The notes: a model not told the origin generated them from the sequence alone. Shown: positions 28,567-42,038, counted from the first letter of the stretch. The stretch: DNA of 64,000 bases from Acidobacteriota bacterium (GCA_040754075.1 JBFMDH010000016.1:1-64000), one strand, 5' to 3'. Translations and numbers: made by a program.

Positions 28567-31500
28567 TTGAACTTACCGCAACCGCGAGGTAATTTGCCGA
28601 CTCCCGAAGAAAAAAAATTGGTTTCCTACCGCTTTGATGATGTGCTGGTAGATGCTCTGACCTTTCGTCTTTTGAAAGGCGATGAGGTGCGCACCCTGGA
28701 ACCGCGAGCCTTCGACCTGTTGCTTTTTTTGTTGGAAAATCGCGGGCGAGTTTGCGATAAAGCGACGCTGTTTGAAAATGTCTGGAAAGATGCCTTCGTT
28801 ACCGATAACGCCCTTACACGCGCCATCAAAGAGATTCGCCGCGCCATTGGCGATGATGCCAGCACCCCGCTTTACATCGAAACTCTTCCGAAACGCGGCT
28901 ATCGGTTCATCGCAGAGGTTAAAGTCGAAACCAAACCGGAAACCGTCGCCATCGCCTCAGAGCCGACCCCTGAACGACAGACGCCACAGACCAGAGAAGC
29001 GGTGGCTCAGGCTTTCAATTACGAAATCATTCAAAAGCTCGGACAAGGCGGCGGCGGCGTGGTCTATCTCGCCGAAGACCTGCGACTCAAAAGGCGTGTG
29101 GTATTGAAATTTCTATCCGAAGAACTGGTGACGGACGACCGCGCTCGCCGTCGCTTTCTTCGCGAAGCGCGGCTTGCTTCGTCGCTTGACCATCCCAATG
29201 TTTGCGCCATTCATGAAATTAAGGAAACCGCCGAATTTATTTTTATCGTGATGCAATACGCCGAAGGCGAAACCCTGAAATCATTCATCAACAACAAACC
29301 GTTGGAATTGAAAGTTCTGCTTTCGATTGCCCTGCAAATCGGCGGCGCATTAAGGACGGCGCATGAACGCGGCATCATTCATCGGGACATCAAGCCGGGC
29401 AATGTCATGGTCAACGAACAGGGAATCGTTAAAGTGCTCGATTTCGGATTGGCAAAATCGGTGATTCGCGAACCGGGCAGCAACTCCGACGAACCGACGG
29501 ATATTACCAGACAAGGCGCGGTGCTTGGCACGCCTGCCTATATGTCTCCCGAACAGGCGCGTGGTGAATCTGCCGACCAACGCAGCGATATTTTTTCATT
29601 TGGCGTTGTGCTTTATGAAATGGCGACGGGACGCAAACCTTTCGATGGCAAATCGCAACCCGAAACCATGAATGCGATCATTAACACGCCGCATACACCT
29701 GTCAAATCGCTGCATCCCGAAGCCCCTGCGGAATTGGCGTCAATCATTGACCGCGCGTTGATTAAAGAGCGCGAGAAACGCTACGACGTCATCGCCGAAT
29801 TGTTGAATGATTTGCGCAGCCTGATTTCGCAAACCGACAGTTTGTATAACGCCATCACTTTGGCGGATGTGTCCGGTTCGTTTTATAGGCAACCACTGCA
29901 TAAACGACTCAAAAAATATTTTCTGGTGGCAACCGCTACGCCGCGCGGCAAATTGCAAGTCGGATTGATTGCGCTGATGATGATGAGTCTGTTGATTATT
30001 TCAGCGATGATTGTCCGCGCCAGAGTGAATGTGAGTTGGGCTAAAAATGCCATCCCGCAAATCGAGAAATTGGCGGGGGAGCGCAATTATTTTGCGGCTT
30101 ACCAGCTTGCCATTGAAGCGCAAAAATATCTGCCTGACGAGGCAACGCTGAAACGCCTGATGCCGGTCATCGCCGATTCGCTGACGGTGACCTCGGAACC
30201 TGCGGGGGCGCGCGTTTATCTCAAACGATTTGTCAAAAACGCGCCCGGTTATCAATCTGCGCCGCGTGAATTCATTGGCACAACGCCAATCAATGACCTG
30301 CAAATCGCGCGCGGCGAATATATTTTAGCTTTGGAAAAAGCGGGCTACGCCGCAGCCGAACGCAGCATCTCGAACCTGTTGACGCTGGCGGGCAATACCT
30401 GGGTTCCGCCGGATGCGCCCAGTAATTACCAGATTAAATTGATTGAAAGCGATAAAGTAAGCGACCGCATGGCATCGGTTCCGGGTGGGGCGTACAAACT
30501 GGTGAGCCGGACGCGACTGACCGAATCCTCAGTAAAGTTGAATGATTTTTTGATTGACCGATACGAAGTCACCAATCGTGAATATAAAGAATTCATCACC
30601 GCAGGCGGATATTTCAAACGCGAATACTGGCAAGCGCCGTTTGTCAAAGACGGAAAAACGATTAGTTGGGAAGAGGCAATGCAAGAATTGCGCGACCGCA
30701 CAGGGCTTCCGGGTCCGCGCAGTTGGACGGGACAAAATTTCCCCGAAGGCAAAGCCGAACATCCGGTCACCGATATTACCTGGTACGAAGCCGCAGCTTA
30801 TGCGGCATTTCGCGGCAAACAATTGCCCGATATATTTCAGTGGGAAAAAGCGGCGCGCAATGGTTTATTCACCTACTACGGCGGTTATGTGTTGCCCTGG
30901 GGAGAGGTGGCGTTTGGCGAAACCGTCGAAGGTCATGCAAATTTCAATAGCAACGGAACCGTTCCTGTTGATAGTTTTGAATTCAGTATGAGTCCGTTCG
31001 GTTGCTATCAAATGGCGGGCAATGTCAGCGAATGGTGTTTGACACAAACCCCGCAAGGATTTACTTACGCGGGCGGCTCCTGGCAGGATTTGTTATATCT
31101 GTTCACGGATATTGGCGTCTTTCCGGGTTTTCATACTTCAAACAAACTGGGATTTCGTTGTGTGCAAAATCTTGCGGGGGATGAGCCGAACCCGCTTACT
31201 CTGCGCATTGATACGGTGAATCAGATTCCCCAATACACGCCGAGCAGTGATGAATACTTTCAATCTTTATTGAGCCATTACCGCTACGACGCCGCGCCGC
31301 TCGACTCGCAAACCATCGACGTCACAGAGACCCCGGAATGGCGGCGCGAAAAGATAACCTTTCGAGGTGGCGGCGATGAACGGGCAATCGCCTATCTCTA
31401 TTTACCGAAAAGCGCCTCAAGCCCATTTCAAGCGATTCAATTTGTTCCGGCAGGTGATGTATACGGCGGTTATAATTCGTTGCCGCAATCGGTAGAGATG

Positions 31501-32061
31501 CAGGTCAGTTGGCTCATCAAATCGGGGCGCGCGGTTTGGGCAGTAGTGTTCAAAGGATTTATCGAGCGCGAACATCCGCCGGATTATGTTTCGCCGCGAT
31601 GGGCTTCAGTTAAACGCCGCGAAGAAGTGGTGCGCAATGCAACGGATTTGCGTCGCGGGTTGGATTATCTCGCCACCAGAAATGATATTGATATGAGCCG
31701 TCTGGCTTATTACGGCTATAGTCAGGGCAGCCAGGAAGGTTACATTTATACGGCAGTTGAAAATCGTTATCGCGTGGCAGTCTTTGTTGCTGGTGGGTTA
31801 TCACTCGGAAACCCGCTCTGGATTGCGGAAGCGCGTCCGGTTAATTTCGTATCGCACATTCGCATTCCCAAGCTTTTATTGAACGGGCGTTATGACGAGG
31901 TCAATCCATTGAAGTCAAACATCGAGCCGCTGTTTAAATTATTAGCCGAACCGAAAAAGCAATTTCTTTATGATGCAGGGCATTCGCCGCCATTGGAAAT
32001 CATCGTGCCGGTAGTCAATAGCTGGTTGGACGAAACCCTCGGCGAAATCCGCCGCCAGTGA
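28567..32061 (+). CDS. Winged helix - Ser/Thr kinase - TM - PEGA - FGE-like - alpha/beta hydrolase fusion
   Basis: 1164 residues from a TTG start (TTG at 28618 is an alternative; no ATG or clear ribosome site is near). Order: OmpR/CadC-type winged helix (about 20-118, ending TLPKRGYRFIAEV); protein kinase (about 152-420) with glycine loop GQGGGG, Lys181, HRDIKPGN (272-279), DFG (292-294) and TPAYMSPEQ; membrane segment (about 463-483); PEGA-like domain (about 538-600, VTSEPAGARVYLKR); formylglycine-generating-enzyme-like domain (about 633-875, FLIDRYEVTNREYKEF, MAGNVSEW, LGFRCV); alpha/beta hydrolase (about 900-1160) with GYSQGS and a final GHSPP histidine. The kinase is complete, so it should be active. 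The topology puts DNA binding and kinase inside, and the enzyme-like domains outside. Targets unknown. Confidence 0.88.
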   Translation: MNLPQPRGNLPTPEEKKLVSYRFDDVLVDALTFRLLKGDEVRTLEPRAFDLLLFLLENRGRVCDKATLFENVWKDAFVTDNALTRAIKEIRRAIGDDASTPLYIETLPKRGYRFIAEVKVETKPETVAIASEPTPERQTPQTREAVAQAFNYEIIQKLGQGGGGVVYLAEDLRLKRRVVLKFLSEELVTDDRARRRFLREARLASSLDHPNVCAIHEIKETAEFIFIVMQYAEGETLKSFINNKPLELKVLLSIALQIGGALRTAHERGIIHRDIKPGNVMVNEQGIVKVLDFGLAKSVIREPGSNSDEPTDITRQGAVLGTPAYMSPEQARGESADQRSDIFSFGVVLYEMATGRKPFDGKSQPETMNAIINTPHTPVKSLHPEAPAELASIIDRALIKEREKRYDVIAELLNDLRSLISQTDSLYNAITLADVSGSFYRQPLHKRLKKYFLVATATPRGKLQVGLIALMMMSLLIISAMIVRARVNVSWAKNAIPQIEKLAGERNYFAAYQLAIEAQKYLPDEATLKRLMPVIADSLTVTSEPAGARVYLKRFVKNAPGYQSAPREFIGTTPINDLQIARGEYILALEKAGYAAAERSISNLLTLAGNTWVPPDAPSNYQIKLIESDKVSDRMASVPGGAYKLVSRTRLTESSVKLNDFLIDRYEVTNREYKEFITAGGYFKREYWQAPFVKDGKTISWEEAMQELRDRTGLPGPRSWTGQNFPEGKAEHPVTDITWYEAAAYAAFRGKQLPDIFQWEKAARNGLFTYYGGYVLPWGEVAFGETVEGHANFNSNGTVPVDSFEFSMSPFGCYQMAGNVSEWCLTQTPQGFTYAGGSWQDLLYLFTDIGVFPGFHTSNKLGFRCVQNLAGDEPNPLTLRIDTVNQIPQYTPSSDEYFQSLLSHYRYDAAPLDSQTIDVTETPEWRREKITFRGGGDERAIAYLYLPKSASSPFQAIQFVPAGDVYGGYNSLPQSVEMQVSWLIKSGRAVWAVVFKGFIEREHPPDYVSPRWASVKRREEVVRNATDLRRGLDYLATRNDIDMSRLAYYGYSQGSQEGYIYTAVENRYRVAVFVAGGLSLGNPLWIAEARPVNFVSHIRIPKLLLNGRYDEVNPLKSNIEPLFKLLAEPKKQFLYDAGHSPPLEIIVPVVNSWLDETLGEIRRQ

Positions 32062-32303: not shown

Positions 32304-35300
32304 TTAATCGCTGGCTGAAACCCAATCCTCTTCACGAGGATACTCTGCGGATTTTAAACGTGATTTGGCACGCCCGAATTTTAGATAAAGCGCCGGTATG
32401 ACAATCATATTGAGAAAGGTTGATGTCACAATGCCACCAAGAATGACGACCGCCATTGGCTGCTGAATCTCTTTGCCCGGTTGTCCCGTGCCAAGTGCAA
32501 GTGGAATCAGTCCGACGCCAGTGACCAAAGCCGTCATCAGAATCGGGCTTAATCGCTCCATCGAACCTTGCACAATCGCATCGCGGAAATTTACGCCTTC
32601 TTCTTCCATCAGATGTTTATAATGACTGATCAGCATGATGCCGTTGCGCGTGGCAATACCGAAGAGGGTGATAAACCCGACAAGCGATGCCACCGACAAG
32701 GTGCCGCCGGAAAGAAAAACCATCACCACTCCACCGATTAACGCCAGCGGCAGATTCGCCATCACCAATAACGCCGAGCGCATTGACTTCAAAGCAATGT
32801 AAAGCAATAGAAATATCCCGGCGATGGCAACCATAGAAAGCCAGGTGATCTGCCGCGAAGCTTTCTCCTGTGACTCGAACTGCCCGCCGTACTGCACAAA
32901 ATAACCTTGCGGCAATTGAACTTTCTCGTTGATTGACCCGCGCACGTCAGCAATCACGCTGCCTAAATCCCGGTCGGCGACGTTGGCTTGAATGATGATG
33001 CGGCGCTGCACATTCTCGCGGTTGATGGTATTAGGACCTTGGTCTGTCCTGACCTCTGCAACCTGTCCGATAGGCACTTTGGTTCCAGTTGGGGTATCAA
33101 TCAAGGTGCGGCTGATGGATTCCAAAGACCTGCGCGCCGAATCATTAAAGCGAACAATAACGTCATAGGTGCGCTGTTCCTCCAGGACTTGGGAAACCGC
33201 TTCGCCGTTGAACGCCACGTCAACAGATTCTGCTAAGTCTTCGGCGCGTAATCCAACCGCCGCCGCTGCCTGCCGGTTCATATTGATTTGCACTTGCGGC
33301 ACACCGACTTGCGGCTCTACTAACAAGTCAACAATGCCTTCCACGCCAGCCATCGCATCCCGCACCTCGTTGGCTTTGGTACGTAGCGTCGCGAGGTCTG
33401 AACCGAAAAGTTTGATGGCGATTTGCGCGCGCGTCCCTGAAAGCAGATGGTCGATGCGGTGGGAAATCGGCTGTCCTACTTCAGCCGTGATGCCGGGGAT
33501 TCGCGATAGTTTCTGTCTGACCTCTTCCATCATCTCGGCATGCGGGCGGTCGCCTTGTTTAGTAACCACCTCAATTTCGCTGCTGTTGACGCCCGCCGCA
33601 TGTTCATCAAGTTCGGCGCGACCCGTGCGGCGGGTTGTTGAAATAATTTCGGGAACTTCGTGGAGCGCCGTTTCAATGATATTTCCGATGCGGTTTGATT
33701 CCTGCAAAGAAGTGCCGGGAGGAAGGCTGGCGTTAATGTTTAAAGCGCCCTCGTTGAATGGCGGAAGAAATTCTCTGCCCATCAATGGAAAGAGGACGAC
33801 TGCAATAAGTAACATCACCGCTGATGCGCCGATGATTTTATATGGATGCCTGAGTGTCCAGTTCAACGTCCGCGCATAACGCGCCTTGAGCCAGGTGACC
33901 AGTCTGGAATCATTTTCATGTTTCAACACCGCAGCGCGACCGAGCATGAAGTAACAAAGCACCGGGGTGACCGTGAGCGCAACAATTAAGGAAGCGACAA
34001 TCGAAATGATGTAAGCAAAGGCGAGCGGCGCAAACATGCGTCCTTCAAAACCGCCCAGGCTGAAGAGCGGCAGAAAGACCAGCACAATAATGAGTGTGGC
34101 AAAGACAATCGAATTTCGGATTTCACTGGATGCTTTGAAGATGACACTAACCGTTGGTTCGGGCATTGGTGAATGGTTGTTCTGTTTAAGTCGGCGAAAA
34201 ACATTCTCGACATCGACAATCGCGTCATCAACCAACTCGCCGATGGCAATGGCTAAACCGCCAAGCGTCATGGTGTTGATGGTGATACCGAAATAACTCA
34301 TCGCCAGAACGGCAGTGAGCAGCGATAAGGGAATCGCTGTCAGGCTGATGAATGTGGTGCGGAAATTCCATAAAAACAGGAAGAGGATAACCGTGACCAT
34401 GATGCCGCCTTCGATGAGCGATTCCTGTACGTTACCAACCGCTCGTTTAATGAAGTCGGCTTGCTGAAAGGCTTTGGTGTCTATGGTGACATCGGGCGGC
34501 AGCGTGGTTTTCAGGGCAGCAAGTGACTGTTCGATCTTTTCGGTCAACTCAAGAGTATTGGCATTCGGCTGTTTCTGAATGGTCGCAACGACAGCGGATT
34601 GGGCGTTGAAACTGCCGTCGCCGCGTTTGAGCGCCGCGCCCAATTGCACCGTGGCAACCTGTTTGATCAAAATCGGCGCACCTTCACGCACTGTGATAAC
34701 CGAATTTTCAAGGTCTTCAACAGAATAAATGCGACCGCGACCGCGAATCAAAAACTCTTCATTGGGACGTTCAAGAAAGCCGCCCGATGCGTTGGCGTTC
34801 GAGGCTTCGACGGCTTTTGTTACCTCTTCGAGCGTCAGCTTATAGTCCGCGAGTTTCGCCGGATCGACCAGAACCTGAAACTGTTTGGTCTCTCCGCCAA
34901 TGATCATCACCTGCGATACGCCGGAGACGCCCAAGAGTCGCGGACGCACCACCCAATCGGCAAGCGAGCGCAATTCCATTGCCGAGGTTTGTTTGCTGGT
35001 CATTGAAATCAACATGATTTCGCCCATCGTCGAAGAGATGGGTCCCAATGTGGGTGGCAAAACTCCTGCCGGCATTCGCACCTGTTGAAGTTTTTCAGTG
35101 ACCAATTGGCGAGCGCGGTAGATGTCTGTGCCAAACTCAAATTCAACGAAGACGATGGAAATGCCAATGGCTGAGTTGGAACGCACGCGAAAGACGCCTG
35201 CTGTGCCGTTCATTGCCGATTCAATCGGTAAGGTAATTAACGATTCAACCTCTTCGGGCGCTAGTCCATGCGCTTCCGTCAGTACCGTTACCGTTGGCGC

Positions 35301-35429
35301 AGTCAAATCCGGGAAGACATCAACGTGAGCTTGAGAAGCGACAATCCCGCCATAAACCAACAACGCCACTGCGGCGACCAGCACCAGCAGGCGATTTTGC
35401 AGAGACCATTGAATAATTCTGTTCAGCAT
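32304..35429 (-). CDS. Heavy-metal RND efflux pump, CzcA/CusA family
   Basis: 1041 residues, the usual length. The N-terminus (NRIIQWSLQNRLLVLVAAVA) and the first periplasmic motif (DVFPDLTAPTVTVLTEAHGL) are those of HME-type RND pumps. TM4 carries GGLAIAIGELVDDAIVDVEN, where acidic residues serve proton coupling. FATRNGIMLISHY near the C-terminus is conserved. It exports metal cations from periplasm or cytoplasm through adaptor and TolC-type channel, both encoded upstream. The TM4 motif differs from the standard CusA and CzcA versions, so the metal is not assigned. Last gene of a seven-gene operon. Confidence 0.92.
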   Translation of the reverse strand: MLNRIIQWSLQNRLLVLVAAVALLVYGGIVASQAHVDVFPDLTAPTVTVLTEAHGLAPEEVESLITLPIESAMNGTAGVFRVRSNSAIGISIVFVEFEFGTDIYRARQLVTEKLQQVRMPAGVLPPTLGPISSTMGEIMLISMTSKQTSAMELRSLADWVVRPRLLGVSGVSQVMIIGGETKQFQVLVDPAKLADYKLTLEEVTKAVEASNANASGGFLERPNEEFLIRGRGRIYSVEDLENSVITVREGAPILIKQVATVQLGAALKRGDGSFNAQSAVVATIQKQPNANTLELTEKIEQSLAALKTTLPPDVTIDTKAFQQADFIKRAVGNVQESLIEGGIMVTVILFLFLWNFRTTFISLTAIPLSLLTAVLAMSYFGITINTMTLGGLAIAIGELVDDAIVDVENVFRRLKQNNHSPMPEPTVSVIFKASSEIRNSIVFATLIIVLVFLPLFSLGGFEGRMFAPLAFAYIISIVASLIVALTVTPVLCYFMLGRAAVLKHENDSRLVTWLKARYARTLNWTLRHPYKIIGASAVMLLIAVVLFPLMGREFLPPFNEGALNINASLPPGTSLQESNRIGNIIETALHEVPEIISTTRRTGRAELDEHAAGVNSSEIEVVTKQGDRPHAEMMEEVRQKLSRIPGITAEVGQPISHRIDHLLSGTRAQIAIKLFGSDLATLRTKANEVRDAMAGVEGIVDLLVEPQVGVPQVQINMNRQAAAAVGLRAEDLAESVDVAFNGEAVSQVLEEQRTYDVIVRFNDSARRSLESISRTLIDTPTGTKVPIGQVAEVRTDQGPNTINRENVQRRIIIQANVADRDLGSVIADVRGSINEKVQLPQGYFVQYGGQFESQEKASRQITWLSMVAIAGIFLLLYIALKSMRSALLVMANLPLALIGGVVMVFLSGGTLSVASLVGFITLFGIATRNGIMLISHYKHLMEEEGVNFRDAIVQGSMERLSPILMTALVTGVGLIPLALGTGQPGKEIQQPMAVVILGGIVTSTFLNMIVIPALYLKFGRAKSRLKSAEYPREEDWVSASD

Positions 35430-35445
35430 AATATGGGGTTGTTTA

Positions 35446-35880
35446 TCAATCTGATGACTGTCTCAAAAGAAAAAGACCGAGCAACGAAAGCGCAATGCCT
35501 AAAACCCGTTGCCAACTGAATGGCTCCTTAAAAAGCGCAAGTCCGATGATTGCCATCAACGCTGCTCCGATAGCTAAAACGGTCGGAACGATGGAAAGCG
35601 GCGCGCCCTTTTGAAACAGCAGAAAAAACGCAATGGTTCCTGCACCGACGCAAATTCCGGTAAGCATTGAATAGGCTATTCCAGAACCGGTGACGGTTTG
35701 TTTCCACTCGCCGAAAAACCACTGCCAGACTAAATAAAGGGCGATGGTCAACATTGCCACAGCCTCCACTACAAAACCGCCTACGCCGTCGCCAATGCGA
35801 GCTGAAGCAAGTTTGGTAAAAACTTGATGTAGTCCATAGAGCACGGCAGCGAGAACCGCATACCCGAACCATTTTTCCAT
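35446..35880 (-). CDS. Small EamA/DMT-type membrane transporter
   Basis: 144 residues with about five hydrophobic segments, corresponding to half of a typical 10-TM DMT protein. It matches the short EamA (COG2510-like) type: WFGYAVLAAVLYGLHQVFTK at the start, EPFSWQRVLGIALSLLGLFL at the end. Such proteins are thought to dimerise. Lies between the adaptor gene (12 bp) and the RND gene (16 bp) in the metal-efflux operon, so it may take part in metal export or in a linked solute export. Substrate unknown. Confidence 0.8.
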   Translation of the reverse strand: MEKWFGYAVLAAVLYGLHQVFTKLASARIGDGVGGFVVEAVAMLTIALYLVWQWFFGEWKQTVTGSGIAYSMLTGICVGAGTIAFFLLFQKGAPLSIVPTVLAIGAALMAIIGLALFKEPFSWQRVLGIALSLLGLFLLRQSSD

Positions 35881-35892
35881 ATATCACCTGAA

Positions 35893-37263
35893 TTAAGTTT
35901 CGTGGGTGTGTGCGCCCGCGTCTGCCGGTCTGAGTTCCTGCAATTTGAGTTGCAGCGCGCCTTGAGTGACGACCCGCTCATCGGCTTTCAATCCTGAAAG
36001 CACCGCAACACGGTCTCCGTATTCATCGCCGAGGGTCACTTCGCGGCGTTGAAATTCTTCGCCGGATAGCAGCACATAGACAATCTGTTTGCCCTCGTGT
36101 TCAAGCACGGCTTCCCTGGGAATCATCATCGCATCCACCGATTCACCGGCATCAAGGCGCACGTTTGCCTGCATCCCGATGCGTAAGGCACGACTGGCAT
36201 TCGGAACTTCAAAGATAACCGTTGCCGCGCGAGTCTGTTCATCAATCACCGCGCCAACGTCGAGCACCTTGCCGGTAAACTCCTGGTCGGGATAAGCGGC
36301 GGTTGTAAACGTAGCTGAGGCATAATTGCCCAGCCTTCTTAAATCAAGTTCAAAGATTGGCGCTTCAATCCACACTACATCGAGGTTACTGACCTCTATG
36401 ATAGCTTCACCGGTTGCGACCTGCTCGCCCATCGCTTTATTGACTTTGGTCACATAGCCGCTTAATGGCGCACGCACACTATAGCTTGAATTGGCGCTAC
36501 CGACGTTCACCTTTCCGGGCATCACTGGTTTAGCTGATGCGAGCGCATCGCGGCGTTTAATGGCAGCATTGTATGCCGCTTGCGCCACATCGCGTTCAGC
36601 TTCGGCGGTTTGTACCTGTCTTTGTGATGCTGCCTTATTTTCAAAAAGCCGATTGGCTCGCTCAGCTTCTTTCTGAGCCAGTTCCAGACGGACGCGAGCC
36701 GATTCGACTTCACCCTCGGCGGCGCGACGTTCTCCTTCGAGGCGGGCATTTTCGACAGCGACCTGGGCATTCTGCGCCTCGACCTGAGCGGCGCTGGCGC
36801 GCACCTGGGCTTGTTCGGCAGAGGTTGCGGTTTGCTGGATGACAGCGATGGTTTGACCTTGGGTGACCCGCTGCCCGACTCTTGGCAACTGTCCGCCCTT
36901 GATGATTCCGCTCACCGGTGGCGAGACGAGCGCCTGTCGATTCGCTGCCGGAATGACCCGACCGGTCGAAGTGATTTGACGTGCCACATTAACCTTCTCG
37001 ACCTTCGCCAGTTTCATACGAATCAGCCATTGCTGCTCCATCAAAAACTTCACCGTCCCGGTGGCGGTTGTTGCTGGCGGAGTTTCCGGCGCATCCGATT
37101 GATTTGACCGGTTGCGAAAAATGAAAAAGCTTAATAGAGCGATGGCAAGGATTCCAACAATGACAATTGGAATCCAACGTTTGATGCCGTAGGTTCTCGG
37201 CATCTTCACATTCTCTTCAGGACGCTCATCGGCGCGCGGCTCATCGCTAATTTTGGTGGTCAT
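35893..37263 (-). CDS. RND efflux periplasmic adaptor (membrane fusion protein)
   Basis: 456 residues. A single N-terminal membrane segment (about 30-50) is followed by a lipoyl-like half (VIPAANRQALVSPPVSGIIK), a long coiled-coil hairpin (about 150-240, rich in Ala, Glu, Arg), the second lipoyl half (SVRAPLSGYVTKVNKAMGEQ) and a beta-barrel. The C-terminus has a short His-containing AGAHTHET tail that might bind metal. It bridges the RND pump and the outer-membrane channel. Overlaps the TolC-type gene by 4 bp (ATGA), so translation is coupled. Confidence 0.9.
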   Translation of the reverse strand: MTTKISDEPRADERPEENVKMPRTYGIKRWIPIVIVGILAIALLSFFIFRNRSNQSDAPETPPATTATGTVKFLMEQQWLIRMKLAKVEKVNVARQITSTGRVIPAANRQALVSPPVSGIIKGGQLPRVGQRVTQGQTIAVIQQTATSAEQAQVRASAAQVEAQNAQVAVENARLEGERRAAEGEVESARVRLELAQKEAERANRLFENKAASQRQVQTAEAERDVAQAAYNAAIKRRDALASAKPVMPGKVNVGSANSSYSVRAPLSGYVTKVNKAMGEQVATGEAIIEVSNLDVVWIEAPIFELDLRRLGNYASATFTTAAYPDQEFTGKVLDVGAVIDEQTRAATVIFEVPNASRALRIGMQANVRLDAGESVDAMMIPREAVLEHEGKQIVYVLLSGEEFQRREVTLGDEYGDRVAVLSGLKADERVVTQGALQLKLQELRPADAGAHTHET

Positions 37264-38537
37264 TTGATGATCTCCATTCCTGTCGTGAATTCCAGTCGAA
37301 AGAGGCTGGCGTAGTAATCAAGCAAAGCTTTGTAGTAATTGGCGCGTACCTCTGCGCGTGTGCGTTGCGCATCAAGCAGAGTTATCAATTCCGTAGCGCC
37401 TTCACGATAAGCGTAAAGAGTTATATCGCGTGATTCGTCGGCTTGTTTCAAAATGCCGGACTCGTATGCGCGCACCTGGTCGCGGGCAGTTTCATAGGCG
37501 CGATAAGCGGATTCAACCTCTGCAAGGGTTCGGTTTCGCGTGAGCCTAAGATGGGCTTCGGCAACCTCCTTTTCCGCCGCAGCACGGGCGATGCCGCCTT
37601 GATTGCGATTGCCGAAAGGCAGCGGCACGGTGACGCCGCCGAGAAGCGTATTGTCAACGCCAACGCGCTTATAACCGATGTAAGGCGTGATTTCGCCTTT
37701 GCCACGAGAACGTTCCAAACTTAATGCAGATTCGGCGCGCGCAACTTCTGCTTCAAAGACCTTCACATCGGCGCGGTTGGTCAAGGCAACCTGGCGCAGT
37801 TGTGTGAGGTCAAGGCTGACCTCACGAAAAGTTAATGCTCCGCGCACTTCTGCATTCTCTGTGCGCACGAACTCACTCTCTCCTAATATCTCCAGCAGTC
37901 GAATCTTTGCCTGCCGCAGAGCAAGCGTTGCATTGGCAAGCGTTGAATCGAATTTGATACGCTCAAGCCTGACCTTTATAAGTTCGCTTTCCGAAACCTC
38001 GCCCTCTTGAAAGCGAGCCGTTGTCAAGCGCAGGAGTTCGGTGAAATTGTCACGATTCTCTTGTTCAAGGGTGAGCACAATTTGCGCCAGCACCGCTTCA
38101 TAAAAACTGCGCTTTAATTCAAAAAGGCGTTGGCTGAGCACGCTGGCAAGTTGCGCTTCGGCGACCGCGACCGTGCGCTCGGCGAGTTGCAAACGCAGGC
38201 GGCGTTGATTGCCGATTTCAAACGGTTGGGTAAAAGTTAGTCCGGTCTCCCGAAGTTGGTTGGCAGGAGTCGGCCCGGAGATTGGCAAATTCTCCGCGCT
38301 GACAGTCAAACCGGGGCGTGGGCGCAACCGCGCGGCTACTCTTTCTGCTTCGGCAATGCCGACTTCAAGGCGAGCCGCTTCAAGCGCAAGATTTCGTTTG
38401 AGGAATTGCTCGGTTGCGGTTTCAAGAGTAAGGATATTGAGCGGCGATGCGGTTGAGGATTGCGCCAAGGTAGTTATTGAAACACAACCGCAAAGTGCGA
38501 ATGCGATGAATGCTCGATAGATTTTTCTGACGGTCAT
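37260..38537 (-). CDS. TolC-family outer-membrane channel (CzcC/CusC-like)
   Basis: 425 residues with a signal peptide (to about SSTAS). Two OEP-type repeats with long helices (LNILTLETATEQFLKRNLAL, RFQEGEVSESELIKVRLERI, ESRDITLYAYREGATELITL). It forms the outer-membrane exit for the RND system. Ends by overlapping the adaptor start by 4 bp and begins 3 bp after the lipoprotein gene. Confidence 0.9.
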   Translation of the reverse strand: MTVRKIYRAFIAFALCGCVSITTLAQSSTASPLNILTLETATEQFLKRNLALEAARLEVGIAEAERVAARLRPRPGLTVSAENLPISGPTPANQLRETGLTFTQPFEIGNQRRLRLQLAERTVAVAEAQLASVLSQRLFELKRSFYEAVLAQIVLTLEQENRDNFTELLRLTTARFQEGEVSESELIKVRLERIKFDSTLANATLALRQAKIRLLEILGESEFVRTENAEVRGALTFREVSLDLTQLRQVALTNRADVKVFEAEVARAESALSLERSRGKGEITPYIGYKRVGVDNTLLGGVTVPLPFGNRNQGGIARAAAEKEVAEAHLRLTRNRTLAEVESAYRAYETARDQVRAYESGILKQADESRDITLYAYREGATELITLLDAQRTRAEVRANYYKALLDYYASLFRLEFTTGMEIIK

Positions 38538-38540
38538 TTT

Positions 38541-39008
38541 TCACTCCACCTGAAAATCTTTTAAAGGCAATCGCTCATCAAGTTTGTCATTTTTGATGTG
38601 AAACTCGATGTCGTAATCGCCCCGGCTGTTGACCGTCAGGTCGGCAACATAAATACCTGTGACTTTGCCGATACGGGCATTGGTCTGCCCGACCTCTGCG
38701 CCGCTTCGAGAGCGAACCGTCAGCGTCACATCTGCTTTTTCAACCGGCGAGCCGTCTGTCAAATCCGTCAGATGAATTAAAAACTGACTCGCTCTTCCAG
38801 CTTTGAGTGGTTCGTATTCAAAGTAATTTTCCAGACGTTCGGTAAACTCCGTTCGCGCAAACGCTTCTGCTTCAACTTCGGTTTTGGCTTTCTCTTTTGT
38901 GCCACAGGCAGTCAAAGCGAACGCAAGAAAAAACAGCATCAGTAGATGCTTGCAACGACAGGCTGTAGTTTTTGGGGATGAGGTGACAGAGAAGTAACTG
39001 ATTCTCAA
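38541..39008 (-). CDS. Probable lipoprotein with FixH/YtkA-like beta-sandwich
   Basis: 155 residues from a TTG at 39008, chosen because AAAGGA lies 8 nt upstream; the frame is open to 39185 without a ribosome site, and an ATG at 38939 would give a very short signal. The segment LMLFFLAFALTACGTKE is a lipoprotein signal with a lipobox Cys. The mature part (about 95 residues) has a beta-sandwich pattern: FEYEPLKAGRASQFLIHLTD, VEKADVTLTVRSRSG, GIYVADLTVNSRGDYDIEFH. Domains like this occur in FixH/YtkA-type proteins and at the N-terminus of some metal adaptors. It probably assists metal binding at the membrane; this is inference. Confidence 0.65.
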   Translation of the reverse strand: MRISYFSVTSSPKTTACRCKHLLMLFFLAFALTACGTKEKAKTEVEAEAFARTEFTERLENYFEYEPLKAGRASQFLIHLTDLTDGSPVEKADVTLTVRSRSGAEVGQTNARIGKVTGIYVADLTVNSRGDYDIEFHIKNDKLDERLPLKDFQVE

Positions 39009-39022
39009 TGAAAGCGTCCTTT

Positions 39023-40093
39023 CTATTCGATTAAATGAATGAGTGTTTCTGTGGCATGGTGAACCGCCAGCGGAGCAAACAGCGTAGCGATAATGAGGGT
39101 GATGATGAAAGAAGCGGCGACCAATACCACCAGTTTTTTCCGCACCCCGGACATCTGAGCTATCTGTTCGGGGTCTGGATGACAATCGGCAAGGTCAACC
39201 AAACGATGGACGCGATGCTCGAAATGTGACGACCCATCCGGCACAAAGGCAGAGCCGGAAACTTGAATCGGTAAGCGGTTATTCTTCGGCAAGGTGAGCC
39301 TTCTTAATTTGATTAACACCTCAGCGATTTCCAGGGGCGCGTCAGTTCGCGCCGCTGCCACTTCATCACATATCATCTCTACATTGATCGCTCGCCATTT
39401 TAAAATCAGGCGAGACAAGGGAAATGCCAATGAAGAGTAACAGCAAATGTTGAGCAGCAGTTTGGCAAAATTATCACGGCGCAGGTGATGTGTGGCTTCG
39501 TGTTCGATGACTCCCATCAGTTCTACAGGCGTCAACTTACAAAGTAATCCGGTTGAAAGAATAAGTTTCGAGCGTGTGAATCCCCAGACGAAAGAAAAGG
39601 GATAGTTGCTCATCACCAATCCAACCTCCATCCCATGTCGTGTTGCCGCTTCTTGAACCAGAGACAGTTGCTCGGTTGAAGGCTGCGACGCATTCACCTC
39701 CAGTCGTTTGACCATACCGTTAATGCGCCAGTAACCGCGCAGGGTTGAAATGACCGCAAAGGCGGTGGCGGCAATCAGGAATAGCAGCGTCAGGTAAGCA
39801 AGCGCCGGTTCGAGGCTGGCAGTAATCTCTCCGAGTAAATGCAGTTTGTGTAGCGGTGACGGATGTGCAACTTCAAAAGCTGACCTGCCCATTATCACTT
39901 CCGGCAGCAGCGAAGCTCCGACCAGCCAGGCGGAAAGCACTGGTGGGAATAAGAGCAGACCCGTGTAGGCTCGCGATAGCGCGTAAGGCTGCGCTTTGAC
40001 GGTGCCACGCGCTAATAGATAGGCAACAAGAAAAGCGCCGAGAGCAAATACGGTATTGAAAAGGATGAAATTTTCCAGGGTATGAATCAGCAC
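39023..40093 (-). CDS. M56 family (BlaR1-like) membrane metalloprotease
   Basis: 356 residues, four predicted membrane segments (three near the N-terminus, about 8-28, 45-63, 98-118, one near 310-330). The zinc motif HEATHH (198-203) lies in VIEHEATHHLRRDNF, with a later EMICDEVAAAR. Family members such as BlaR1 and MecR1 sense a signal and inactivate a BlaI-type repressor by proteolysis. It has no penicillin-binding sensor domain. It is directly after a BlaI gene (14 bp) and heads a metal-efflux operon, so the signal may be metal rather than a beta-lactam (inference). Confidence 0.87.
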   Translation of the reverse strand: MLIHTLENFILFNTVFALGAFLVAYLLARGTVKAQPYALSRAYTGLLLFPPVLSAWLVGASLLPEVIMGRSAFEVAHPSPLHKLHLLGEITASLEPALAYLTLLFLIAATAFAVISTLRGYWRINGMVKRLEVNASQPSTEQLSLVQEAATRHGMEVGLVMSNYPFSFVWGFTRSKLILSTGLLCKLTPVELMGVIEHEATHHLRRDNFAKLLLNICCYSSLAFPLSRLILKWRAINVEMICDEVAAARTDAPLEIAEVLIKLRRLTLPKNNRLPIQVSGSAFVPDGSSHFEHRVHRLVDLADCHPDPEQIAQMSGVRKKLVVLVAASFIITLIIATLFAPLAVHHATETLIHLIE

Positions 40094-40107
40094 GCACCGT
40101 CCTCTCT

Positions 40108-40554
40108 TTATTTGCTGGCTTTTTGATTTCGTTTGCGCCGTTTCTCTTTGATCATCGCTTCAAGCTGATCGAGCTTTTTTGAATCCTCACCGATAATATC
40201 TACAAATGCCGATAGTGCCGGTTCGGTAAATTGTCCAAGTAAGGAACCGAGAACCTCCTCGGCGACGTGCTGCTCAAATTCCTGGCGCGTATAGGTGGGT
40301 TCATAGACAAAAGCTTTTCCTTGCTTTTCACGTCTTAAATACCCCTTGCGATGCATGCGGTCGAGTGTCGTCAGTACAGTGGTGTGCGCAATCTCGCGTT
40401 TGTGTTGTAAATGGGCTTCAACTTCGTTCACTGTTAAACCCGGTTCCCGCCACAAAATTTCCATAACCGTAGTTTGTAATTCGCCGAGTACATGGGCTGC
40501 GCCGCGTGCGCCGGGCTTGAAACCTCTGATGGTTAATTTCGGATTGCTACGCAT
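40108..40554 (-). CDS. BlaI/MecI/CopY-family repressor
   Basis: About 148 residues from ATG at 40554, which has GGAG 7 nt upstream; the frame extends to 40617 but that codon is the -35 box. The winged-helix domain is at about 20-95: LGELQTTVMEILWREPGLTV, then EIAHTTVLTTLDRMHRKGYL as recognition helix and wing. The C-terminal helix (about 98-145) would give dimerisation. BlaI and MecI are cleaved between helices of this part. It is the first gene of the metal-efflux operon and probably represses it. No Cys-rich metal site of the CopY type is seen, so a direct copper sensor is less likely. Confidence 0.9.
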   Translation of the reverse strand: MRSNPKLTIRGFKPGARGAAHVLGELQTTVMEILWREPGLTVNEVEAHLQHKREIAHTTVLTTLDRMHRKGYLRREKQGKAFVYEPTYTRQEFEQHVAEEVLGSLLGQFTEPALSAFVDIIGEDSKKLDQLEAMIKEKRRKRNQKASK

Positions 40555-40588
40555 ACTTTCGCTCCGCGTTCGTTTTACGGCAGTGGAA

Positions 40589-40642
40589 AGTATAGAGAGA
40601 ACTTTCTGGGGGTGCAACTACAGTAGGTAGTCAAACTTGACT
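40589..40642 (-). promoter_or_regulatory. Promoter and operator candidates of the BlaI-RND operon
   Basis: On the minus strand TTGCAC (complement of 40612-40617) and TATACT (complement of 40589-40594) are exactly 17 bp apart, giving a transcript start near 40582, about 28 nt before the blaI-like ATG. Directly upstream lie CTACAGTAG (40618-40626) and AGTCAA-AC-TTGACT (40629-40642). BlaI/CopY operators are dyads with TACA/TGTA halves, so the first is a fair match; the second dyad is unassigned. Confidence 0.6.
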
Positions 40643-41063
40643 GAAGCAAGGTTGCGCCTCACCGTGGGGGAAATTAAACACCGGCAGTCAACACTCTGTT
40701 GCGGCGCGTCAGGTAGCAAGGGGATTTGCTATTCGGTTACGCTTCGGCGGCGGTTCTCTTCACCGATTGAGAAGGCATCACAGACGATTCAATTGATGAA
40801 TCCGCGCCCGACCCTTTCCCTTTTCTGAAAATGCTCTTGTTTGGCGGAAGGTCGCTCAGGGAAGGGGCTTTTATTCAGTGTCGAGGAAGCTATCTGAAAG
40901 CATTTTTAATTTGGACAGGTTTATTACTTGATAACGGATGATGATTGATAAGGTACAACAATATGAATACCCAATCACCTTACAACCGCTTCAATCGCTC
41001 AGTGGTAATTCGTCGGATGACCTGCGTATAATAAACGGCTCAAGAGAGAGGAATAATTTATTC
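40643..41063. other. Spacer between the BlaI-RND operon and the radical SAM gene
   Basis: No gene supported. An imperfect stem (CCCTTTCCCT near 40812-40821 and AGGGAAGGGG near 40858-40867, followed by CTTTTATT) is terminator-like on the plus strand. A frame joined to the radical SAM gene is open from 40938 but has no ribosome site. Confidence 0.4.
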
Positions 41064-42038
41064 ATGCAAAAATCTGATGTTTTTCATGCCTGGGGAAGAA
41101 TTCTGAACGGTCAATTTCCATCCTTATCCATCGAAATCACCCGTGAATGTCCGCTGCGTTGTCCGGGTTGCTATGCTTATGAACCGGAGCATCTTGGAGA
41201 GCTTGGCCCGCTTCGCGTACTCTCCGATTACAAAGGGCAAGAGCTGATTAATGGTGTATTAGAACTTGCCCGTAAGCATCGCCCTTTGCATATTTCAATT
41301 GTTGGTGGAGAGCCGCTTGTACGTTTCCGCGAACTTGACGTGTTGCTGCCTAAGCTGAGCGACATGGGCATCTCTGTGCAAGTCGTCACCAGCGCGGTGC
41401 GGGAAATCCCCGCGCACTGGAGCAAGATTAAAGACCTTTCGCTCGTGGTTTCCATTGACGGATTGCAACCTGAACACGACGAGCGGCGCAAACCTGCGAC
41501 CTACGAGCGAATTTTACAAACCATCCAGGGACACGCCATTACCATTCATTGCACCATCACCGGGCAGATGGTTGGACGTGAGGGCTATTTTGAAAAGTTC
41601 TTGTCCTTTTGGTGTGACAAACCGGAGATCAAAAGAGTCTATTTTAGCCTGTTCACGCCGCAAAAAGGCGCACAAGGGGAAGAGATTCTTACAAAGGACG
41701 GGCGCGATGCGGTGCTGAATGAATTGGTCGGCTTGCGTTCAAGTTTTCCGAAACTCTATTTTCCCGACACCGTGGTGAATGGCTATCGCCAGCCGCCACG
41801 AAATCCTGATGAGTGCATATTTTCACGCACGACATTGAACATCACCGCAGATTTGAAAGGCAGAATTAGCCCTTGTCAATTCGGCGGCGACCCGGATTGT
41901 TCGCAATGCGGTTGCCTGGCATCAGCGGCTTTGACTGCGGTTGGTGAATATCGCCTTTTCGGTTTTGTGCCGGTGAAATCGATTTTCTTTGCCTCAGATC
42001 GAATTGGTAAAAAAACGAAAAAGGTATTAAACCGATAA
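41064..42038 (+). CDS. Radical SAM protein
   Basis: 324 residues from the ATG at 41064, preceded by GAGAGGAA. The frame also has an ATG at 40938. The cluster motif CPLRCPGCYAY (CxxxCxxC) is in SIEITRECPLRCPGCYAY, after the usual beta1; the GGEP motif follows in ISIVGGEPL and LSLVVSIDGLQPEHDERRK is typical. Near the C-terminus CQFGGDPDCSQCGC gives four more cysteines, resembling a small SPASM-like auxiliary cluster. The family modifies peptides, sugars or RNA; substrate unknown. Divergent from the BlaI-RND operon. No peptide-precursor gene is visible next to it. Confidence 0.82.
   Translation: MQKSDVFHAWGRILNGQFPSLSIEITRECPLRCPGCYAYEPEHLGELGPLRVLSDYKGQELINGVLELARKHRPLHISIVGGEPLVRFRELDVLLPKLSDMGISVQVVTSAVREIPAHWSKIKDLSLVVSIDGLQPEHDERRKPATYERILQTIQGHAITIHCTITGQMVGREGYFEKFLSFWCDKPEIKRVYFSLFTPQKGAQGEEILTKDGRDAVLNELVGLRSSFPKLYFPDTVVNGYRQPPRNPDECIFSRTTLNITADLKGRISPCQFGGDPDCSQCGCLASAALTAVGEYRLFGFVPVKSIFFASDRIGKKTKKVLNR

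Follow-up and report, generated by a model that had tools for sequence, protein, structure and literature searches.

A 64,000-nucleotide stretch of the genome of a soil bacterium of the Acidobacteriota (GCA_040754075.1, JBFMDH010000016.1:1-64000; hereafter the window) carries an operon at 32304-40642 in which a BlaI-family repressor and an M56 membrane metalloprotease stand in front of the genes of a heavy-metal efflux (HME) RND pump. On balance, our analysis favors a one-step, protease-based metal switch as the explanation of the arrangement as a whole. The gene order, the operator, an intact catalytic site, the absence of a sensor domain and a triad of histidines are present in the sequence itself; metal binding, cleavage and the identity of the metal, which we infer, would connect them as follows. 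When metal is absent, a BlaI dimer would occupy an operator, O1, over the -35 box and keep the whole operon off, blaI included. The M56 protein would act as a BlaR1-type membrane protease that has a cytoplasmic active site and lacks a beta-lactam-binding domain. Three histidines of its periplasmic first extracellular loop (EL1), H77, H82 and H85, probably together with H345 and E349, would bind a divalent cation accumulating in the periplasm, with zinc, cobalt, nickel or cadmium likelier than copper or silver. Metal binding would free the autoinhibited protease to cut BlaI between A116 and F117, and the derepressed operon would supply the lipoprotein, outer-membrane efflux protein (OEP), adaptor (MFP) and RND permease that export the metal. 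Because blaI and the protease gene share the operon, we propose that the switch resets as the metal drops.

A preliminary description of the window had claimed seven co-directional genes separated by -4 to 16 bp. All seven do lie on the minus strand at that place, with gaps in operon order of 14, 14, 3, -4, 12 and 16 bp, and Pfam and NCBIfam confirmed the family of each. Behind a single promoter the order is blaI, M56 protease, YtkA-like lipoprotein, OEP, MFP, EamA and HME-RND (Table 1). BlaI belongs to the BlaI/MecI/CopY family, its Penicillinase_R winged-helix domain scoring 91.8 bits against a gathering score of 22.6, and its closest solved structures are 2g9w and S. aureus BlaI; its start was moved to the ATG at 40554, the TTG at 40617 being part of the promoter. 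The permease is an HME-RND member of the CusA/CzcA family (TIGR00914, 898.6 bits, cut-off 701.45). The RND and EamA families also include drug exporters, and an operon that exports organic compounds or antibiotics, with a switch that senses the drug, might look similar. However, the permease fails all multidrug models, the adaptor is closest to ZneB, and the M56 protein lacks a penicillin-binding domain, which makes such a function quite improbable.

The module recurs in related genomes. A scan of one genome per species returned 11 loci, all from Acidobacteriota metagenome-assembled genomes (one record is titled Actinomycetota but named WN_Acidobacteria), and when the search was extended to the whole class, 13 of 162 Blastocatellia genomes (14 loci) proved to carry the M56 clade, at 397-549 bits. 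A sister clade scores clearly lower, at about 115-205 bits, except for one locus (L025), whose higher score reflects its inclusion in the query alignment. The shared order is blaI, M56, lipoprotein, OEP, MFP, a variable slot and RND; the OEP is absent from its usual place in some loci. The RND gene directly follows in 12 of the 13 genomes; in G057, the thirteenth, the contig breaks off inside the MFP gene. The RND proteins are about 78-84% identical, the lipoproteins 56-68% in 11 loci, and the M56 proteins only about 39-53%. The variable slot holds EamA in the window and CDF, CDF plus DUF4198, or DUF4198 in L028, L033 and L069, respectively. In one genome (G001), the same blaI-M56 pair precedes a non-orthologous OEP-MFP-RND set, whose RND is 36% identical and has the CzcA/ZneA-type motif DFGLIVDGAVVMVEN in its fourth transmembrane (TM) helix, plus a CDF exporter; thus, the pair travels with metal export and not with one particular pump.

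The region in front of blaI provides a second line of evidence. The preliminary description had placed there a promoter with a 17-bp spacer and a TACA/TGTA-like dyad. The promoter stands, as TTGCAC-17-TATACT, whereas the dyad is instead RACTAY-N5-RTAGTY. A generic consensus promoter scan did not report this promoter, and the case for it therefore rests on conservation. The dyad is present at all 13 blaI promoters examined, with A2, C3, T4, A5, T13, A14, G15 and T16 never varying. In 11 of these promoters the -35 box, TTGAC, forms the center of the dyad; the other two, the window and L019, have a dyad that overlaps the -35 box (TTGCAC and TTGCAA) at its downstream edge. Matches to the core ACTAY-N5-RTAGT number 23 across 265 kb of the homologous loci but zero in 20 Markov-shuffled sets, far more than chance would give, and the full motif has two sites in the whole 7.58-Mb genome, one of them at O1. 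The other perfect dyad (C26:83751-83767 in G000) lies some 105 bp upstream of a gene for a Rieske-type oxygenase; considered as a sign of a regulon reaching beyond the operon in this genome, it was judged probably due to chance. The operator of the BlaI/CopY class is TACANNTGTA (PMC7253601), and allowing up to one mismatch no match to it was found near the promoter. We regard it as very probable that BlaI represses through O1. That BlaI and M56 control an RND metal-efflux operon, as had been claimed, thus draws strong support, at the level of sequence, from a gene order conserved across genomes and from a conserved operator overlapping the promoter.

Perfect operators on TATACT-type promoters also precede a HupE/UreJ_2 gene with a small companion in two relatives (L026:1730-1746 and L030:7281-7297), so that by operator sequence the predicted regulon reaches past the pump operon there. 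Since two early-branching sister-clade loci (L059 and L062) use the same operator before blaI and after M56, it probably predates the link to RND pumps.

The M56 protein resembles BlaR1 without its receptor part. In agreement with the preliminary description, no penicillin-binding domain was found; the protein ends 17 residues after TM4 and, without a C-terminal extracellular sensor, falls outside the BlaR1/MecR1 beta-lactam receptors. An AlphaFold model built with 13 sequences (pLDDT 78, pTM 0.76) places TM helices at 2-29, 36-68, 97-129 and 319-339, a soluble domain with the HEATHH motif and a C-terminal helix at 341-355. Its best PDB fold matches are S. aureus BlaR1 structures 8exs and 8exq (probability 1.00, E about 0.008). 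These four predicted helices and the cytoplasmic HEXXH...E gluzincin domain point to a BlaR1-type M56 protease, although the Pfam score falls below the cut-off. BlaR1 signals through the extracellular loop that joins its helices 2 and 3 (EL1, residues 56-96; PMC9834060). The RND-linked and sister M56 clades split with 100/100 tree support, and in the corresponding loop H77, H82 and H85 are each invariant in the former (13/13) and missing from the latter (0/15), where position 77 is Glu in 15/15 and no His occurs at 82 or 85. Of the few columns conserved in EL1, three are these histidines. In the C-terminal helix, H345 and E349 do not vary in either clade. We hold the chances that the EL1 histidine loop is the sensor to be evenly balanced.

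The proposed cleavage step is suggested by a motif shared by the two proteins. In S. aureus, the bond cleaved by BlaR1 is N101|F102 in BlaI and S283|F284 in BlaR1 itself (PMC9834060). The P1' Phe is kept in 12 of 12 BlaI proteins of the clade, while sister-clade BlaI proteins read A/V-C-I-[VI] at this position. In the window, the BlaI site and the putative autocleavage loop of the M56 protein both read SAFV, which is the pattern expected if a loop of the protease imitates the substrate, with cleavage inferred from it. As judged from these alignments, it is highly likely that M56 cleaves BlaI.

Several points weigh against this interpretation. First, the Pfam match of the M56 protein (6.8e-7, 29.2 bits) lies just below the gathering cut-off of 31, its HEXXH...E motif being intact, and the confidence of the AlphaFold model is low in the loop around residues 70-100. 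Second, a single monophyletic group underlies the association seen at the level of clades, and the histidine triad may therefore have arisen only once. Third, H203 and C242 beside the catalytic zinc are equally clade-specific (13/13, absent from the sister clade; E197 12/13), so that the sensor site could be cytoplasmic. The same circuit would then sense metal at or beside the zinc site of the protease (E197/H203/C242) as a metal-activated enzyme, with the EL1 histidines serving assembly or contact with the pump. We consider this unlikely, as three of the few conserved columns of EL1 are His in a loop equivalent to the BlaR1 signaling loop, and RND pumps mainly serve the periplasm, which favors a periplasmic signal. 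Consistent with cytoplasmic sensing, a copper-dependent protease activity has been proposed for the cyanobacterial protease PetP (PMC7896320).

As to the signal, the preliminary description had left a choice between metal and envelope stress. Metal is indirectly supported by the clade-specific histidine triad, by the CDF and HupE/UreJ partners and by the occurrence of the module beside another, unrelated metal pump; envelope stress found no support. The protease might nevertheless respond to envelope damage or to a mislocalized part of the pump or lipoprotein, with metal inducing only indirectly, as M56 is related in sequence and fold to the M48 quality-control proteases HtpX and BepA. However, the triad is specific to the RND-linked clade, the module is also paired with a different pump without the lipoprotein, and CDF and HupE are metal genes, which renders envelope sensing improbable. 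We judge it likely, from these sequence associations, that metal is the signal.

Metal could also be sensed by BlaI itself, as in CopY, with M56 as a turnover factor. The best NCBIfam match of BlaI is indeed CopY_TcrY, at 57 bits against a cut-off of 122. CopY proteins use CXC motifs (PMC7253601), but BlaI of the window has no Cys and the clade has no C-terminal CxC pair. Direct, Cys-based sensing of the CopY type is thereby ruled out, and BlaI as the sensor is highly improbable.

For the identity of the metal, the closest solved structures are ZneA for the permease (580 bits; CusA 541) and ZneB for the adaptor. The positions of the CusA methionine cluster read N/S/H in the aligned window permease (relatives were examined as well), and a CusA-type copper or silver pump is not favored because the three-methionine cluster is missing. 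These observations, together with the CDF, HupE/UreJ and CzcA/ZneA-class pump partners in relatives, make one of the divalent cations Zn, Co, Ni and Cd rather more plausible than copper or silver.

A second operator, O2, is a candidate. In 14 of 14 loci, a site of this type with at most one mismatch follows the M56 stop codon at a distance of 47-65 nt, and two sister-clade loci have one at the same place. In the window (38935-38969), the site is directly followed by a small hairpin and a run of T (AGCATC-TACT-GATGCT GTTTTTT) in the 5' coding region of the lipoprotein gene. In L020, L033 and L069, a stem resembling an intrinsic terminator, read by eye, stands just before O2. Attenuation between the regulator and pump genes is thus a possible reading of the sequence. 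In some lineages the site falls within the 5' coding sequence of the lipoprotein. It may be a roadblock or an operator for the pump genes, or its conservation may in part reflect coding constraint on the KTTAC stretch.

Table 1. Features of the operon, in window coordinates
Feature	Position	Strand	Support or remark
Operator O1, GACTAC-CTACT-GTAGTT, overlapping the -35 box	40616..40632	-	ACTA...TAGT invariant at 13/13 blaI promoters
Promoter, -35 TTGCAC, 17-bp spacer, -10 TATACT	40589..40617	-	Sequence; matching layout TTGCAA-17-TATATT in L019
blaI, BlaI/MecI/CopY-family repressor, 148 aa, no Cys	40108..40554	-	PF03965, 4.8e-26
BlaI SAFV, residues 115-118, aligned with S. aureus BlaI N101|F102	40201..40212	-	S-[AT]-F-V in 12/12
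M56 membrane metalloprotease, 356 aa, no C-terminal sensor domain	39023..40093	-	Pfam; AlphaFold; BlaR1 fold matches
EL1 loop, residues 69-96, with H77, H82, H85; proposed metal-sensing loop	39806..39889	-	13/13 vs 0/15; BlaR1 EL1 position
Catalytic HEATHH, residues 198-203	39485..39502	-	H198, E199, H202, E239 invariant in 28/28
M56 SAFV, residues 281-284, in loop matching the BlaR1 autocleavage loop	39242..39253	-	S-[AGS]-F in 12/13
Candidate O2, ACTAC-AGCCT-GTCGT, 1 mismatch	38955..38969	-	56 nt after M56 stop, inside lipoprotein 5' coding part
YtkA-like lipoprotein	38541..39008	-	YtkA PF13115; corrected start TTG 39008
Outer-membrane efflux protein (OEP, TolC-like)	37260..38537	-	PF02321, 3.9e-44
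RND adaptor, CzcB/CusB-type MFP (HlyD/CusB-type)	35893..37263	-	TIGR01730; closest solved structure ZneB
EamA half-size transporter, 144 aa, in variable slot	35446..35880	-	Pfam match; slot holds CDF or DUF4198 in relatives
HME-type RND permease	32304..35429	-	TIGR00914; ZneA 580, CusA 541 bits; CusA Met triad replaced by N/S/H

Other blaI-M56 pairs were also found. The sister clade (L025, L053-L068) consists of sensor-less pairs that are widespread in Blastocatellia; its M56 proteins are equally short and have TonB receptors, MFS, ABC, ferric-reductase-like and FGE-sulfatase genes as neighbors, and the clade probably senses something else. The other two pairs of the window's genome (L007 and L008, on C10 and C8 of G000) have long M56 proteins of about 680-790 aa, and one of them sits among MacB/FtsX-like ABC permease genes. 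L019, which has no lipoprotein gene, carries an apparent N-terminal remnant (EKTTPCR) after M56, past 9320, and this remnant suggests that the pump was replaced behind a retained regulator. Plasmid relatives of M56 amounted to two distant matches. The operon is flanked on the plus strand by a large fusion protein gene convergent with it (28567-32061; Trans_reg_C winged-helix, Ser/Thr kinase, PEGA and FGE-sulfatase, with a C-terminal region hydrolase-like in appearance) and by a radical-SAM protein gene divergent from blaI (40938-42038), without a clear NCBIfam equivalog. A PADLOC scan gave nothing of note.

Compared to known systems, the proposed switch combines familiar parts. It shares with staphylococcal BlaR1/BlaI and MecR1/MecI the repressor family, the gluzincin protease, the four-TM layout, the P1' Phe and an autocleavage-type loop, but it differs from them in lacking the C-terminal penicillin-binding sensor, in its His-bearing EL1, and in its operator and target genes. 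Like CopY and CopR, the repressor belongs to the same superfamily and would repress metal export genes, but both the CxC metal motifs and the operator of CopY are absent. The zinc HME-RND system ZneCAB offers the closest solved permease and adaptor; the sequence similarity is only distant, the regulator differs, and the TM4 motif AIGELVDDAIVDVEN is unlike the DFGxxxDGA class. In CzcRS and CusRS, a membrane sensor of periplasmic metal controls HME-RND operons by phosphorylation, in place of which the window system would use proteolysis of a repressor.

The preliminary description had presented BlaR1-type proteolysis as known for beta-lactam sensing. This is correct, but beta-lactams are not the sole case, as the cyanobacterial PetR/PetP system already senses copper (PMC7896320, PMC12292863). 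PetR, a BlaI-family protein of Synechocystis, is degraded by the BlaR1-type protease PetP when copper is present (PMC7896320, PMC12292863, PMC13421787). Both systems pair a BlaI protein with a membrane M56-type protease and have no beta-lactam output, PetP being metal-activated and degrading its repressor; unlike the window system, PetR/PetP responds to copper and controls plastocyanin and cytochrome c6 rather than efflux, and PetR also activates. Within the set of papers searched, no direct description of BlaI/M56 with metal efflux was found. Thus, the PetR/PetP principle is already known, and what is new is an efflux-linked, operator-distinct, EL1-histidine version in Acidobacteriota. We tentatively suggest, with somewhat more doubt than confidence, a BlaR1-like class in which EL1 itself has become a periplasmic three-His metal sensor replacing the penicillin-binding domain, so that a complete transmembrane sensor and protease of about 355 residues directly breaks down the HME-RND pump's repressor and governs a small regulon (pump, CDF and HupE/UreJ) by way of a distinct operator.

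Although M56/BlaI pairs are widespread, few of them have an established signal. The contrast with the sister clade points to three residues as the sensor, to a regulon-defining operator and to a likely scissile bond, and thereby turns detection by a sensor-less BlaR1 into a directly testable question. If the proposal is true, repressor proteolysis would be added to the modes of control known for HME-RND pumps, and the PetRP principle of cyanobacterial copper homeostasis would extend to the efflux of metal in Acidobacteriota.

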